NCBI RefSeq assembly: GCF_030295385.1
Contig: NZ_AP027079.1
Location: 2,976,001-3,040,000 of the forward strand
Length of the DNA: 64,000 bases
Source of the DNA: Geothrix oryzae
GTDB taxonomy: Bacteria; Acidobacteriota; Holophagae; Holophagales; Holophagaceae
Direction: 5' to 3'
In this document: in pieces, positions 11,213-64,000 of the stretch
Position numbering within the stretch: position 1 is the stretch's first letter
How the letters are laid out: every line of letters begins with the position of its first letter
Position numbers and translations under genes: made by a program
The notes under the pieces: generated by a model
What the model saw: the letters and a program-made list of their open reading frames with translations, nothing else
Told to the model about the DNA's origin: nothing
Databases searched by the model: none

Positions 11213-12442
11213 ATGGTTCAGCCCTGGGATCTCCCGGCCCCCGAAGCCGGCTCGGCTCCGCGTCCCAACGCCGCAGGCCTGGACCTGGCGGCCCTGAAGG
11301 CCCTGGTCGCGAGCTTCGGCGAGCCCGCCTGGCGCGGCGCGCAACTGTTCGAGGGGCTCTACCGGCAGCGCTGGACCCGCTGGGAGCAGTTCACCCACCT
11401 GCCGCAGGCCCTCCGGACCCGGCTGGCGGCCGAGGTGGAGCTCGCCTGGCCCACCATCGTGCAGAGCCAGCCCTCCTCCGATGGTTCGACCAAGCATGTG
11501 TTCGAGCTCGCCGACGGGAAGCAGGTCGAAGGCGTCCACATGCCTTATGTCGTCCGGGGGTCCGGTCTGCGACCTACACCCCCGGAGCCCCCGCGCCCGG
11601 GCCAGGCCGAGCCTGTCCCCGGGCTTTCCGTCCGGGGGTCAGGTCTGAGACCTACACCCCCGGTCCTGGACCCTGAAGACCTCGACCGCGTCACCCTCTG
11701 CCTCTCCAGCCAGGTGGGCTGCGCCATGGGGTGCACCTTCTGCGCCACGGGCCAGATGGGCATCATCCGCAACCTCAGCGCGGCGGAGATCGTGGGCCAG
11801 GTCGTGGCCATGCTGAACCACCACGGCCATCCCGCGGAGCGCCCCGTCAACTTGGTGTTCATGGGCATGGGGGAGCCCCTGCACAACCTCGATCATGTGA
11901 TGACCGCCTTCGGTCCGCTGACCGATCCCAAGGGCCTGGCCATCCCGCCGAGGCGCATCACCCTCTCCACCTCGGGCCTGGTGAGCGGCATCGAGCGCCT
12001 GGGCGCCTTCGCCCGCCGGCCCCGGCTGGCCTTGAGCCTGAATGCCACCACGGACATCCACCGCTCCCTGATCATGCCCGTGAACCGGGTGTGGAACCTG
12101 GAGGCCCTGGCGACGGCGCTCGCGGCCTTCCCCCTGCAGTCCGGCGAGCGCATCACCCTCGAATATGTGCTGCTGAAGGGCGTCACCGACAGCCTGGAGG
12201 ATGGCCGCCGCCTGGCCGCCTTCGCGCGCCGCTTCCCCGCCAAGATCAACCTGATCCCGTTCAATCCGCACGAGGGCAGCGGCTTCGAGCCCCCGGAGGA
12301 GTCCCGCGTCGGCGCGCTCTGCCGGCTGCTCTCGGATGCGGGGCTGCCCGTGAGCGTCCGCCGCAGCCGCGGGCAGGATGTGGCCGGAGCCTGCGGCCAG
12401 CTGGTAAGGGAAGGCCAAGGCCGGCACCCGAAACCGCGCTGA
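11213..12442 (+). CDS. rlmN: Dual-specificity RNA methyltransferase RlmN, with an in-frame insertion
   Basis: Radical-SAM enzyme that makes 2-methyladenosine at 23S rRNA A2503 and in some tRNAs. The 4Fe-4S cysteines are C170, C174 and C177 (CAMGCTFC). The two mechanistic cysteines match C163 (RVTLC) and C394 (VAGACGQL). GMGEP and LNATTD motifs are intact. The product is 409 residues, longer than the E. coli protein (384), because residues about 114-150 are an extra Pro/Gly-rich stretch carrying RGSGLRPTPP twice. It lies just before the conserved DRVTLC and is encoded by a copy of the window's hairpin repeat. All catalytic residues are retained, so the enzyme is probably active. Confidence 0.95.
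   Translation: MVQPWDLPAPEAGSAPRPNAAGLDLAALKALVASFGEPAWRGAQLFEGLYRQRWTRWEQFTHLPQALRTRLAAEVELAWPTIVQSQPSSDGSTKHVFELADGKQVEGVHMPYVVRGSGLRPTPPEPPRPGQAEPVPGLSVRGSGLRPTPPVLDPEDLDRVTLCLSSQVGCAMGCTFCATGQMGIIRNLSAAEIVGQVVAMLNHHGHPAERPVNLVFMGMGEPLHNLDHVMTAFGPLTDPKGLAIPPRRITLSTSGLVSGIERLGAFARRPRLALSLNATTDIHRSLIMPVNRVWNLEALATALAAFPLQSGERITLEYVLLKGVTDSLEDGRRLAAFARRFPAKINLIPFNPHEGSGFEPPEESRVGALCRLLSDAGLPVSVRRSRGQDVAGACGQLVREGQGRHPKPR
11553..11663 (+). repeat. Bipartite hairpin repeat, copy R1, inserted in rlmN
   Basis: A 111-base block (exactly 37 codons). The first stem is TCCGGGGGT (11553-11561) with ACCCCCGGA (11578-11586), enclosing a small GGTC-TGC-GACC hairpin. The second stem is GCCCGGG (11595-11601) and CAGGC with GCCTG and CCCGGGC (11618-11624) around loop CGA. 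A second half-copy of the first stem follows: TCCGGGGGT at 11631, ACCCCCGG at 11656. The same two-hairpin design occurs between genes elsewhere in the window. Here it is in frame and free of stops. Confidence 0.85.
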
Positions 12443-15070: not shown

Positions 15071-15138
15071 TCCGGGGGTTCCGCGCTGCGCGCACACCCC
15101 CGGACCCCCGCGCGATGCCCGGCACAGCCGGGCCTCGC
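15071..15138 (+). repeat. Bipartite hairpin repeat, copy R2a
   Basis: First stem TCCGGGGGT (15071-15079) with ACCCCCGGA (15096-15104) enclosing GCGC-TGC-GCGC. C-rich spacer. Second stem GCGATGCCCGGC (15112-15123) with GCCGGGCCTCGC (15127-15138), one mismatch, loop ACA. It begins five bases after the stop codon of the upstream barrel gene. Confidence 0.88.
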
Positions 15139-15190
15139 TTTGCTCTCCGGGAGTTCCCCCCACCACGCATGTGTGGCGGGGATCTATGGG

Positions 15191-15259
15191 CGCGCTGCGC
15201 GCACACCCCCGGACCCCCGCGCGATGCCCGGCACAGCCGGGCTTCGCTTTGCTCTCCGG
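15191..15259 (+). repeat. Bipartite hairpin repeat, copy R2b (tandem partial duplicate of R2a)
   Basis: This 69-base block matches 15082-15150 with a single difference (C to T at the base corresponding to 15134). It lacks the left G-run of the first stem but keeps the second hairpin (15221-15232 with 15236-15247, loop ACA). The whole R2 pair is bracketed by inverted GGGGTTCC (15075) and GGAACCCC (15258). Between the copies lies a further small inverted repeat, CCACCAC-GCATGT-GTGGCGG. Confidence 0.88.
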
Positions 15260-17616: not shown

Positions 17617-18757
<1,141 letters not shown>

Positions 18758-55603: not shown

Positions 55604-56059
55604 ATGAACCGCCGCTTCCTCTCCGCCCTCCTCCTCCCCGCCCTCTGCCTGACCCTGGCCGCCCAGGAGGCCACCCCCGCCGAAACGGAAGGCCTCGTGA
55701 AGGAGGCCATCGCCTTCGCCAAGGCCAATGGCCGGGAGGCGGCCTTCAAGGAGATCACCCGAATCGGTGGCCGGTTCCACAAGCACGGCGGCGAACTCTA
55801 TGTCTTCGTCTACGACATGGACGGGAAGGTGCTCGCCCACGGCCAGGGGGCCTCGAAGGTCGGGGTCAACCAGATGAAGGCCAAGGACCCGGACGGCGTC
55901 GCCTTCGTCGAAGACCGCGTCAAGCTGGCCAAGACCAAGGGCAAGGGCTGGCACGACTACAAATACATGAATCCCAAGGATGGGAAGAAGGAGCCCAAGA
56001 CCAGCTACATCGAGGTCTGGGACGGCCTGATCTTCGGCGCCGGCATCTACAAGAAATAG
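55604..56059 (+). CDS. Exported single-Cache-domain protein, paralog 1
   Basis: A 151-residue secreted protein: signal peptide (FLSALLLPALCLTLAAQ) then a small Cache-type (sCache_2-like) domain with KHGGELYVFVYDMDGKVLAHGQG and KGKGWHDYKYMNPKDGKKE, ending in SYIEVWDGLIFGAGIYKK. The same fold forms ligand sensors of chemoreceptors and kinases, but here it stands alone and may be a periplasmic binding protein. It is one of a tandem pair with identical length, see the next gene. AAGGAG precedes the ATG; an upstream in-frame extension to 55487 was rejected because the signal peptide begins at 55604. Confidence 0.83.
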   Translation: MNRRFLSALLLPALCLTLAAQEATPAETEGLVKEAIAFAKANGREAAFKEITRIGGRFHKHGGELYVFVYDMDGKVLAHGQGASKVGVNQMKAKDPDGVAFVEDRVKLAKTKGKGWHDYKYMNPKDGKKEPKTSYIEVWDGLIFGAGIYKK

Positions 56060-56192: not shown

Positions 56193-56648
56193 ATGCGACC
56201 GAACCTCGCCGCCCTGCTCTGCCTTCCCGTGATCTGCATGCCCATGGCCGCCCAGAACGCCACTCCCGCCGAGGCGGAAGCCCTGGTGAAGGAGGCCATC
56301 GCCTATGCCAAGACCCACGGCAAGGACGCCGCCTGCAAGGAGATCACCCGGCCCGACGGCTCGCTGCGCAAACATGGCGGTGAGCTCTATGTCTTCGTCA
56401 ACACCATGGATGGAAAGAACCTTGCTCACGGCATGGGGGCGAGGTTCGTGGGCGCCGACCAGTCGAAGGCGAAGGACCCCGATGGCGTGGAGTACATGCA
56501 GGAACGAATCAAGCTGGCCAAGACCAAGGGCAAGGGTTGGCACGAGTACAAGTACCTGAACCCCAAGACGGGCAAGAAGGAAACCAAGGCCAGCTACATC
56601 GAGGTCTGGGACGGCCTGATCTTCGGCGCCGGCATCTACAAGAAATAG
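56193..56648 (+). CDS. Exported single-Cache-domain protein, paralog 2
   Basis: A 151-residue secreted protein that aligns with paralog 1 without gaps; the last 30 residues are almost identical (IYKK end, WDGLIFGAG). The signal peptide reads LAALLCLPVICMPMAAQ. Conserved positions include KHGGELYVFV, MDGK-LAHG-GA and KTKGKGWHEYKYLNPK. Differences concentrate in residues 45-60 and 78-95, where ligand contacts would lie, suggesting changed specificity. GGAGGACCC precedes the ATG at 56193; the 5' region is also duplicated (GCCGAAAGA... CATCC/ATCC-AAGGAG). Function unknown. Confidence 0.83.
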   Translation: MRPNLAALLCLPVICMPMAAQNATPAEAEALVKEAIAYAKTHGKDAACKEITRPDGSLRKHGGELYVFVNTMDGKNLAHGMGARFVGADQSKAKDPDGVEYMQERIKLAKTKGKGWHEYKYLNPKTGKKETKASYIEVWDGLIFGAGIYKK

Positions 56649-56749: not shown

Positions 56750-58345
56750 ATGAAGATCATCGTGACCGACGAGGTGACCGGCGAGGGTCTAGCCCTCCTG
56801 AGGGAGGATCCGCGCATCAGCCTCGATGTCCGGCTGGGCCTGTCCATCGAGGCCCTCCATGCCTGCATCGGCGAGTACGACGCCATCATCACCCGCAGCG
56901 GCACCACCGTGGACAGGGCCCTGCTGGACGCCGCCACGAACCTGAAGATCGTGGCCCGGGCCGGCGTCGGCATCGACAATGTGGATGTGGACTACGCCAG
57001 TTCCAAGGGCGTGATCGTGGTGAATGCCCCCTTCGGCAACACCAACAGCGCGGCCGAGCACACCCTGGCCCTCCTGCTGTCCGCCTGCCGGCATGTGCCT
57101 GCGGCCAACGCCAGCCTGAAGGGCGGCGAGTGGAAGCGGGCGAAGTTCACCGGCGTCGAGTTGAAGGGCAAGGTCGCGGGCGTCATCGGCCTGGGCAAGG
57201 TGGGCGGCCGGGTGGCCACGCGGCTCAAGGCCTTCGAGTGCGAGGTGCTGGGCTGCGATCCCTACATCAGCGCCAAGCGGGCCCATGACCTGGGGGTGCG
57301 CCTGGTGGATCTCGCCGACCTCTGCCGCAGCTGCGACATCCTCACGGTGCACACGCCCCTGAACGAGGAGACCAGGGGCATGATCGGCCCCGATCAGCTG
57401 GCCCTCATGAAGGAGGGCATCATCCTCCTCAATGTGGCCCGGGGCGGCATCCTGGACGAACCGGCCCTGCTGGCGGCCCTCCAGTCCGGCCAGGTGAGCC
57501 TGGCGGCCGTGGATGTGTGGTCCGAGGAGCCTCCCAAATCCGAGGTGCTCAAGGCCCTCATCGCCCAGGAGCGCCTGGTGGTGACGCCGCACCTGGGGGC
57601 CAACACCCAGGAGGCCCAGGTCAATGTGGCCATCGATGTGTCGAAGGAGATCCTCGCCTACCTGGACCGCGCCCCCCTGGAGAACGCCGTGAACCTGCCG
57701 CGCTTCGATCCGGCCGTCATGGACCAGATGCGTCCCTACTTCAAGCTCATGGCCGTCCTCGGCGAGTTCGGCCTCCAGCTCATGAAGGGCAACCTGGACC
57801 GGGTCACCTTCGGGTTCAGCGGCGCCATCGCCCACCTCGACTGCTCCCCGCTCACGGTGAGCGGCCTGGCTGCCCTCCTGGGCCGCGTGGCGGACCAGCC
57901 CGTGAACATGGTCAACGCGGGCCTCGTGGCCGAACGCATGGGCCTGGTCGTGGAGGAGCGCAAGTCCACCCTGGGCGGGGCCTTCTCCAACCTGGTGACC
58001 CTGACCCTGGAGGGCCCGGGCGGCGCCCGGACCGTGTCCGGCACGCTCTTCGAAGGCACCCCCCGCATCGTGGGGCTCCGCGATTACGCCATGGACTTCA
58101 TGCCCGAGGAGCACATGCTCCTGCTGAGCTACGCCGACCGCCCCGGCATGATCGGGAAGATCGGCACCGTGCTGGGCCAGCACGACATCAACATCGCGTT
58201 CATGAACCTGGGCCGCCGCGAGCGGAAGGGCGAGGCCATGGTGGTGCTCTCGGTGGACTCCCCGGTTCCGGCCCCGGTCCTCGAGGAGTTGCGGAAGGCC
58301 ACCGAGGCCACCTTCATCCAGGCCCTGCACCTGCCTTCGGCCTGA
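56750..58345 (+). CDS. serA: D-3-phosphoglycerate dehydrogenase (long form with ACT)
   Basis: First step of serine synthesis. The 531-residue protein has substrate and NAD domains (RAGVGIDNVDV, GLGKVGGRVATRL), catalytic NVARGGILDE, and TPHLGANTQEAQVNVA with the catalytic His. An allosteric-substrate-binding domain (about 320-450) and a C-terminal ACT domain (about 455-531, LLSYADRPGMIGKIGTVLGQHDINIAFMNLGRRERKGEAM) indicate serine feedback inhibition. The ATG at 56750 is chosen; the ORF extends upstream into the Cache paralog. A hairpin repeat (R4) starts five bases after its stop. Confidence 0.96.
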   Translation: MKIIVTDEVTGEGLALLREDPRISLDVRLGLSIEALHACIGEYDAIITRSGTTVDRALLDAATNLKIVARAGVGIDNVDVDYASSKGVIVVNAPFGNTNSAAEHTLALLLSACRHVPAANASLKGGEWKRAKFTGVELKGKVAGVIGLGKVGGRVATRLKAFECEVLGCDPYISAKRAHDLGVRLVDLADLCRSCDILTVHTPLNEETRGMIGPDQLALMKEGIILLNVARGGILDEPALLAALQSGQVSLAAVDVWSEEPPKSEVLKALIAQERLVVTPHLGANTQEAQVNVAIDVSKEILAYLDRAPLENAVNLPRFDPAVMDQMRPYFKLMAVLGEFGLQLMKGNLDRVTFGFSGAIAHLDCSPLTVSGLAALLGRVADQPVNMVNAGLVAERMGLVVEERKSTLGGAFSNLVTLTLEGPGGARTVSGTLFEGTPRIVGLRDYAMDFMPEEHMLLLSYADRPGMIGKIGTVLGQHDINIAFMNLGRRERKGEAMVVLSVDSPVPAPVLEELRKATEATFIQALHLPSA

Positions 58346-58350
58346 CGCGG

Positions 58351-58439
58351 TCCGGGGGGGGGACCGCCTGCTCGCTGACGCTCGCGAAGCCCCCCCGGAG
58401 TCCCCCACCGTGCGGCAGGGCCAAGCCCTGCCGCACGGT
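58351..58439 (+). repeat. Bipartite hairpin repeat, copy R4
   Basis: G9 run (58354-58362, TCCGGGGGGGGG) pairs with C7 run (58390-58396) closed by CCGGA. The second hairpin is a perfect 15-base-pair stem ACCGTGCGGCAGGGC (58407-58421) / GCCCTGCCGCACGGT (58425-58439) with loop CAA. It shares the 15-mer GGGGACCGCCTGCTC with R5 but has a wholly different second stem. Confidence 0.9.
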
Positions 58440-58467
58440 CTGCCATCATGGAGAGGTGGAGGCCTCT

Positions 58468-59118
58468 TTGAAACTCATCGCCTGGGACTTCGACGGCACG
58501 CTGGTGGACAGCCGCCCCCTCATCGAGGCCGGCATGGCCCACGCTCTGGATGCCCTGGGCCAGCCCCGATCCGTCATGGCCGAATGGCTGAAGTATGTCG
58601 GCCTGCCCGTGGAGGCCGGCATCCGGAACACCTTCGGCCCGCTGGGCCTGGACAACGACACCGTCCTGAAGGCCTACCGCAGCTTCGGCCACCTCGAACA
58701 CGAGCACCTGCTCCAGCCCTTCGAGGGCATTCCCGAGCTGCTGGACGAGCTCCGGGCCAGGGGCCAGCGCATGGGCGTGGCCACCTCCAAGCGGACAGCC
58801 CCCCTCCTGCGCCAGATGGCCCGGTGGGGCTGGGAGGCCTACTTCGACCCCATCATCACCCCCGACGATGTCACCCACGGCAAGCCTCATCCTGAGTCCC
58901 TGCAGCTGATGCAGACCCGAACGGGCCTCGCCGCCGAGGACATCCTCATGGTGGGCGACACCCCCTTCGACCTGGACATGGCCAAGGCCGCCGGGGTGCC
59001 CAGCCTGGCCGTGGGCCACGGCTTCTACCCCGAGGAGGCCCTGGCCGCCTGCGGCCCCCGGGCCTATGCGCCGGACACGGCCGCCCTGAGGGACATCCTC
59101 CTGGCCTGGAGTGAGTGA
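58468..59118 (+). CDS. HAD-superfamily phosphatase, phosphoglycolate-phosphatase-like
   Basis: A 216-residue HAD enzyme. Motif I is AWDFDGTLVDS, motif II VATSKRTAP, motif III KPHPE and motif IV DILMVGDTPFDLDMAKAAG. It has a four-helix cap of the C1 type (residues 15-80), typical of phosphoglycolate phosphatase and beta-phosphoglucomutase relatives. Substrate unassigned. A TTG start at 58468 is favoured, because GGAGG lies five bases before it; the GTG at 58456 is an alternative. It is flanked by hairpin repeats on both sides. Confidence 0.88.
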   Translation: MKLIAWDFDGTLVDSRPLIEAGMAHALDALGQPRSVMAEWLKYVGLPVEAGIRNTFGPLGLDNDTVLKAYRSFGHLEHEHLLQPFEGIPELLDELRARGQRMGVATSKRTAPLLRQMARWGWEAYFDPIITPDDVTHGKPHPESLQLMQTRTGLAAEDILMVGDTPFDLDMAKAAGVPSLAVGHGFYPEEALAACGPRAYAPDTAALRDILLAWSE

Positions 59119-59123
59119 TGCTG

Positions 59124-59198
59124 TCCCGGGGGGACCGCCTGCTCATGTCCCCCCCGGGATCCCCTGCCGCAGCCTCAGGCGAAGCCTGAGGCTGCGGC
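59124..59198 (+). repeat. Bipartite hairpin repeat, copy R5
   Basis: First stem TCCCGGGGGGAC (59124-59135) with GTCCCCCCCGGGA (59147-59159). Second perfect 15-base-pair stem GCCGCAGCCTCAGGC (59166-59180) / GCCTGAGGCTGCGGC (59184-59198), loop GAA. Lies between the HAD phosphatase stop and the moaC start. Confidence 0.9.
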
Positions 59199-59222: not shown

Positions 59223-59723
59223 ATGGCTGAACTCACGCACCTCGATCCCGAAGGCCGCCCCCAGATGGTGGATGTCTCCGCCAAGGCCGTGACCCGGCGG
59301 ATGGCCGTGGCGGCCGGCTACCTGGAACTGGATGCCCCGGCGGCCGAGGCCTTGTCCAGGGGCGGCGGCCCCAAGGGCGACCCCTGGTCCGTGGCCCGCA
59401 TCGGCGCGGTGGGGGGGGTCAAGCGCACCTCGGACCTGATCCCCCTGGCCCACCCCCTGGCCATCGAAGCCGTGGAGGTGGCCCACCACTGGGACCCCGC
59501 CACCCGTCGCGCCTGGCTCCGGGTGTCCGTGAGCTGCGAGGGCCGGACGGGCATCGAGATGGAAGCCCTGGCCGGCGTCACCGTGGGTTTGCTGGTGCTC
59601 TACGACATGCTCAAGGCCGTGAGCCACGGCATGGCCGTCGGCCCGGCCCGGCTCCTCCGGAAGGAGGGGGGGCGCCGGGGCACCGTCACCCTGCCCTGGG
59701 AGGGATGCCCCTGGGCGCCCTGA
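59223..59723 (+). CDS. moaC: Cyclic pyranopterin monophosphate synthase MoaC
   Basis: Second step of molybdenum cofactor synthesis. The 166-residue protein has MVDVSAKAVTRRMAVAAG, KRTSDLIPLAHPL (Ala in place of the usual Cys of the LCHPL motif), the active-site region GRTGIEMEALAGVTVGLLVLYDMLKAVSHGM, and RLLRKEGG. The length matches the family. No other moa gene is near. ATG 59223 has GGAG five bases upstream. Confidence 0.95.
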   Translation: MAELTHLDPEGRPQMVDVSAKAVTRRMAVAAGYLELDAPAAEALSRGGGPKGDPWSVARIGAVGGVKRTSDLIPLAHPLAIEAVEVAHHWDPATRRAWLRVSVSCEGRTGIEMEALAGVTVGLLVLYDMLKAVSHGMAVGPARLLRKEGGRRGTVTLPWEGCPWAP

Positions 59724-63912: not shown

Positions 63913-63934
63913 CCGAGCCAAGCGGACCGGAAAA

Positions 63935-63963
63935 GCAAAAGCCCGGCTCTGCCGGGCTTTTGC
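63935..63963. terminator. Intrinsic terminator of punA, also hairpin 2 of repeat R6
   Basis: GCAAAAGCCCGGC (63935-63947) and GCCGGGCTTTTGC (63951-63963) form a perfect 13-base-pair stem with loop TCT. In + orientation the A-tract before and T-tract within the stem give a classic intrinsic terminator. In the opposite orientation the loop reads AGA and the apex is GGC-AGA-GCC, the signature of the repeat family. Confidence 0.85.
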
Positions 63964-64000
63964 GCGGGGGCCCGAGGGTGTGCGCATCGCGCACCGCTAG
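63935..64000 (-). repeat. Bipartite hairpin repeat, copy R6 (inverted, cut by window edge)
   Basis: Read on the minus strand from the window edge: inner hairpin GTGCGC-GAT-GCGCAC (63980-63994), ACCCTCGGGCCCCCGCGC C-rich module, then the 13-base-pair hairpin with loop AGA. It aligns with R2/R3 (GCGCAC-ACCCxCGxxxCCCCCGCGC). The G-run arm of the first stem is beyond 64000, so the element belongs to a gene or gap to the right of the window. Confidence 0.75.

Follow-up and report, generated by a model that had tools for sequence, protein, structure and literature searches.

What are the two hairpin repeats that bracket a phosphatase gene at this locus, and what has placed each of them directly behind a stop codon? 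The window, a stretch of 64,000 nucleotides, covers bases 2976001-3040000 of the single 3,265,981-base contig of the source genome (G000). On its + strand, a serA-like D-3-phosphoglycerate dehydrogenase gene (56768..58345; Pfam 2-Hacid_dh, PGDH_inter and ACT) is followed by repeat R4 (58351-58439), a HAD_2 family phosphatase gene with a TTG start (58468..59118; PF13419, E 1.4e-38), repeat R5 (59124-59198) and a moaC gene (59223..59723; Pfam MoaC, 7.7e-42). Both genes preceding a repeat end with TGA (58343-58345 and 59116-59118), and R4 and R5 each start 5 nt past that stop. The preliminary description, in which the two repeats flank the phosphatase gene in the same orientation and begin within six bases of the upstream stop, agrees with these coordinates. 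Among named relatives, Geothrix species and Holophagaceae assemblies come closest to the phosphatase locus. Upstream of the serA-like gene, two adjacent open reading frames have a 300-nt stretch in common (55628-55927 and 56217-56516, 74% identity), apparently the result of a tandem gene duplication.

Each repeat consists of a first hairpin, a C-rich linker and a second hairpin. Hairpin 1 of R4 (58351..58399, +) reads TCCGGGGG...CCCCCGGA, and its core, GGGGACCGCCTGCTC, is also present in hairpin 1 of R5 (59124..59159, +), where the inner loop is shortened; the common first module reported earlier is thus real. The second stems do differ in sequence, ACCGTGCGGCAGGGC-CAA-GCCCTGCCGCACGGT in R4 (58407-58439, +) and GCCGCAGCCTCAGGC-GAA-GCCTGAGGCTGCGGC in R5 (59166-59198, +), yet their architecture is common, with exactly 15 bp and an NNA loop. 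On the sense strand, both fold far more stably than shuffled sequences (z = -4.40 and -6.63; none of 200 shuffles as stable).

R4 and R5 belong to a family with units of about 75-90 nt: hairpin 1 with a G-run and a C-run, the C-rich linker, and hairpin 2 with 15 bp and an NNA loop. An exact-pattern genome search (CCGGGGG...CCCCCGG) gave 30 forward matches versus 10 for the reversed control and was too loose alone; covariance models were used instead. Covariance model R1 was built from an alignment of 16 copies and recovers R4 (5.1e-11) and R5 (2e-9) in the window, both of them being part of its training set, and a second subfamily (type A), represented by eight copies from the R1-R3 region and elsewhere, gave covariance model R2. 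A search that assumed a three-base loop yielded 123 distinct second hairpins, of which 96 have a stem of exactly 15 bp and 120 a loop with A as its last base. When 15 copies are aligned, both sides have changed at 12 of the 15 stem-2 pairs, and 91.1% of the stem-2 cells are paired, compared with 65.0% after shuffling and 26-37% after sliding. With such strict pairing and both-sided changes, the stems of R4 and R5, previously called unrelated, are variants of one constrained structure. No Rfam family matched at gathering score within the window, and a search of the open-access literature gave no publication that describes repeats of this kind in Geothrix.

Further copies lie elsewhere in the window. 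R2 (15071..15250, +) consists of two tandem or nested type A copies directly after a TAA stop, and R3 (17617..17689, +), of type A as well, follows a TGA stop directly; the recurrence of the stop-adjacent position at these two repeats, pointed out before, is confirmed. R1 is the exception among R1-R5, being located inside an open reading frame. On the - strand, a further copy of type A, which contains a nested hairpin, occupies 63933..64000 and runs past the window end (G000 3039933-3040038). The relative G017 has a shorter version of the nested copy at this site.

Covariance model R1 (E <= 0.001) detects the element in 46 of the 47 genomes of the genus, with 0-79 copies per genome: 1-22 in most, 68 in G020 and 79 in G022. 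A class-wide search, in which fewer candidates were scored so that the copy counts are lower bounds, found it in 61 of 93 genomes (46/47 of the genus, 15/30 of other genera of the family and 0/16 of the other two families). Among the 93 class genomes searched, the element is restricted to one family, the Holophagaceae. Units can also be multiplied in place: G020 carries 99-bp head-to-tail arrays, the units of which have nearly the same second stem. In the arrays L170-L173 of this genome, the 99-bp period is a multiple of three, and the last unit is truncated in three of the four.

The position relative to stop codons was quantified on loci collected around the model hits, mostly top-scoring ones (150 hits, 127 after removal of repeats, 117 after merging of arrays). 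As the flank is no part of the models, they cannot impose the placement; codon-position GC, a crude frame caller, served to pick the upstream reading frame. In 72 of the 117 loci, the first G-run follows the in-frame stop at a distance of 2-15 nt, and in 50 at 8-9 nt. Removal of orthologous flanks left 78 independent loci, 51 of them at 2-15 nt after an in-frame upstream stop and 34 at exactly 8-9 nt; of the other 27, 18 are preceded by a gene of opposite orientation and nine are inside an open frame. Random sliding was possible for the 46 of these 51 loci with a measurable gap: all 46 are observed in the 2-15 nt range versus a mean of 15.8 and a maximum of 25 in 5000 trials. The distances, proposed earlier as the quantity to survey genome-wide because a random distribution would speak against the idea, are therefore non-random over the 78 loci covered, and the claim of stop-codon placement holds, now with numbers attached. 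In the source genome alone, 19 of 27 elements (E <= 0.01) are found 3-13 nt after a stop. A different frame caller classes 61 of the 117 loci as same-strand, 32 as lying within an ORF, 23 as opposite and one as undefined. Since most copies sit in tolerated places anyway, these positions do not discriminate between a preferred target and selection.

The sites at the phosphatase gene are filled in some relatives and empty in others (37 of 40 fetched loci processed). At the serA/phosphatase junction, readable in 31 loci, seven have both hairpins, one has hairpin 2 alone, one a remnant and one another insert, while 21 junctions are short and empty (11-47 nt). At the phosphatase/moaC junction, hairpin 1 is present in 15 of the 37 loci (12 of these with hairpin 2), and hairpin 2 alone in one; 20 are empty, several of them being stop/start overlaps, and one has another insert. 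A direct comparison is provided by G017 (94.9% identity with G000 over 203,634 of 224,000 nt), which has 14 nt in place of R5, lacks hairpin 1 of R4, and has 45 nt in place of a further copy at G000 2952152. The flanks at both phosphatase junctions are too diverged for an exact target duplication or insertion ends to be demonstrated. Longer inserts of about 280-380 nt occupy the serA/phosphatase junction in L028, L033 and L040, that of L033 having terminal inverted repeats. In L036, the phosphatase/moaC junction contains about 50 nt of the start of moaC in two places, ahead of a solitary second hairpin and at the beginning of the gene itself.

A gene at 11213-12442, which we take to be rlmN-like from its motifs, is a hot spot of in-frame insertion. 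It hosts R1 (11553..11663, +), which lies in frame and combines one unit with an additional hairpin 1 at a spacing of 78 nt. A match to the encoded protein exists in all 47 genus genomes, and 13 of 30 fetched loci contain at least one in-frame unit, complete or incomplete. The other 17 have no insert and read straight from ...MPY to D/GRVTL or DRTTL. The 13 filled loci are also those in which covariance model R2 detects the element in sense orientation (L245 as a weak partial hit, E 0.033). The units (11 by pattern, nine distinct; the pattern misses some) keep 8-13 of 13 Watson-Crick pairs of stem 2, and five of the 13 pairs show compensatory changes. A role at mRNA 3' ends is impossible in the middle of a gene, and the covariation of stem 2 hence does not require one. 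These copies form a natural control that separates causes at the DNA level from causes at the mRNA 3' end.

This bears directly on the role suggested in the preliminary description, namely mRNA stabilisation or uncoupling within operons, with hairpins retained after stops because they protect the upstream mRNA or uncouple operon genes. Some REP repeats have known roles of this kind, and the sharp position after the stop, the sense orientation, the very stable folds and the covarying stem 2 all fit such a function. In a survey of 40 genomes, passages of PMC1590033 describe high-stability stem-loops that also favour the 50 bp 3' of the stop codon. The suggestion is nonetheless unsupported by the present data: the same structure, with its covarying stem 2, occurs mid-ORF in the rlmN-like gene, most orthologous junctions do without the element, and a strict 15-bp stem with an NNA loop goes beyond what stability needs. 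Pairing kept for the mRNA would give more G-U than A-C mismatches on the sense strand, and the opposite is seen (29 G-U vs 71 A-C in 111 stems), which argues against selection in the mRNA sense. The stems are not independent, and the A-C excess is a lead: it amounts to 15 vs 37 once similar stems are removed (P 0.003) and 11 vs 23 without stem positions 4-6 (P 0.06). Such an excess would be compatible with copying that is biased to one strand or with folding of the bottom DNA strand. We therefore regard an mRNA 3'-end element as an unlikely account of the family, although a secondary effect on mRNA may exist. A hairpin right 3' of a stop codon should not, on its own, be taken as evidence of mRNA 3'-end function. 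Intrinsic transcription terminators, which GC-rich hairpins at gene ends would recall, are far less probable still: the T-run never exceeds three in the 10 nt after any of the 78 elements (also a point against the mRNA 3'-end role), a terminator scan found none at R4 or R5, and both are located within a co-directional gene string.

Two further explanations dispense with an mRNA function. Palindromes could arise in place by template-switch mutation, without any mobility; the quasipalindrome-associated form of this process (PMC7202029) would keep both arms complementary without selection for RNA. In agreement with it, the long palindrome of L024 reaches into the host flank, and the orthologous copies at the serA junction (seven species) have compensated changes at four of the 15 stem-2 pairs, both arms changing in concert. 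It is, however, a mutational process and not an element, which leaves spread and placement unexplained: the combination of hairpin 1, linker, loop rule and spacing is found at unrelated loci and across 61/93 genomes, and near-identical copies populate G020 and G022. The hairpin 1 common to unrelated loci refutes template switching as the sole cause, and as a full account it is very unlikely, but it can still explain the upkeep of the stem. Integron-like attC sites bracketing a gene cassette would likewise combine a structure conserved more than its sequence with a position after stops and a gene between two sites. The core sites of attC are paired RYYYAAC / GTTRRRY motifs. Such paired cores are present in 0/78 loci, and relatives have the serA-phosphatase-moaC order whether or not they carry the elements, so that attC sites have next to no probability.

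R4 and R5 probably represent a mobile palindrome of the Holophagaceae, REP/MITE/MIRU-like and non-autonomous, that settles directly 3' of stop codons, an element of which the architecture, the family-wide spread, the stop-codon placement, the turnover of sites, the tandem duplication and the in-frame gene insertion are observed. The palindrome would settle right behind the stop, usually with five bases between stop and hairpin, TGA or TAA being at or near its preferred target, and insertions elsewhere in genes would mostly be purged. It may move as a folded single DNA strand, with the moving enzyme supplied in trans. The pairing of stem 2 would be maintained either by rewriting of one arm from the other or by a need for pairing during movement, and not by an action of the hairpin at mRNA 3' ends.

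The recent copies of G020 add one puzzling feature. Their hairpin 1 is nearly invariant (mean of 0.12 bits per position in 17 equal-length copies), and pair 4 of stem 2 takes all four Watson-Crick states without a mismatch (CG 7, TA 6, GC 5, AT 2; 20 loci). Concerted versus one-sided changes number 13:0 at pair 4 and 8:16 at the other 14 pairs (Fisher, 6.8e-5). G022, where 29 of 30 fetched loci gave the hairpin, has TA 16, GC 6, CG 4, AT 1 and TG 2. In G076, pair 4 is mostly fixed; the four-state variation is therefore not general. No correlation between pair 4 and the flanking bases was seen by eye, and we cannot explain this concerted four-state variation in recent copies. The copying step of the mobile palindrome might alter the two arms of stem 2 together over part of their length, an improbable extension of the mobile reading. 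If true, a folded single strand would be the substrate of a transposition or replication chemistry that is new and randomises one base pair per copy. A base pair that changes in concert lets the copying mechanism be tested by sequencing. Over the loci L170-L189 and L282-L311, pair 4 occurs in all four Watson-Crick states almost without mismatch, unlike the other pairs.

Among known repeats, the element is nearest in kind to REP, RPE and MIRU repeats, as these are described in passages of the reports cited below; no parent family is named. REP/BIME sequences, which have RAYT transposases (IS200/IS605-like), resemble it as short, mostly intergenic palindromes downstream of coding regions, with covarying stems and an uneven copy number (passages of PMC2817692 and PMC3733652). 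The element is, like them, palindromic, dispersed, extragenic and multicopy. The differences lie in the tag, in the transposase and in the organization: here, two fixed hairpins per unit are arranged head-to-tail, whereas REP/BIME form inverted pairs, and the GTAG/GTGG tag convention is missing. On the sense strand of the 78 loci, GTAG is found near the left end in one and near the right end in one, and GTGG at neither end; the reverse complement of GTAG occurs in two left and one right ends, and that of GTGG in six right ends. The Y1_Tnp domain, the one transposase family searched for, is present in five of the 47 genus genomes and absent from the other 42, among them the source genome and the copy-rich G020 and G022. 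RAYT-mobilised REP/BIME were rejected on both tests, tag and transposase, and this stop-positioned repeat resides in genomes without the usual REP transposase.

CGTC-tagged REPs, including the Rickettsia palindromic elements (RPE), resemble the element in that they are reported, in passages of PMC3733652, without a dedicated transposase and inside genes, as here; in-frame gene insertions of RPE are known (passages of PMC2229807). The same account of CGTC-REPs gives an 8-9 bp stem, a 4-5 nt loop and an unpaired CGTC tag, in contrast to the 15-bp stem and 3-nt loop found here, where a three-base loop was assumed in the search. CGTC lies near the left end in 3/78 loci and near the right end in 4/78, and this class was rejected as well, the tag being rare and the geometry different (15-bp stem in 96/123). 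MITE are defined by terminal inverted repeats and a target duplication that match an autonomous transposon; in the present family, TGA at the left end together with CTG at the right end is found in 23/78 loci, and the search for an autonomous partner covered Y1_Tnp. MIRU have DTGA as their target. Insertion at a stop/start junction in gene orientation is seen here too, 51/78 elements following an in-frame stop. MIRU are described in passages of PMC12548453 as mobile units inserting at the stop/start junctions of neighbouring genes, and several of the empty phosphatase/moaC junctions here are likewise stop/start overlaps. MIRU, however, carry a coupled small ORF, and such an ORF was rejected here, as the ATG ORFs at the left end are inconsistent in frame and in stop position. 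The element is an example of a bacterial repeat with a nearly base-exact position behind stop codons, spread over one family of bacteria.
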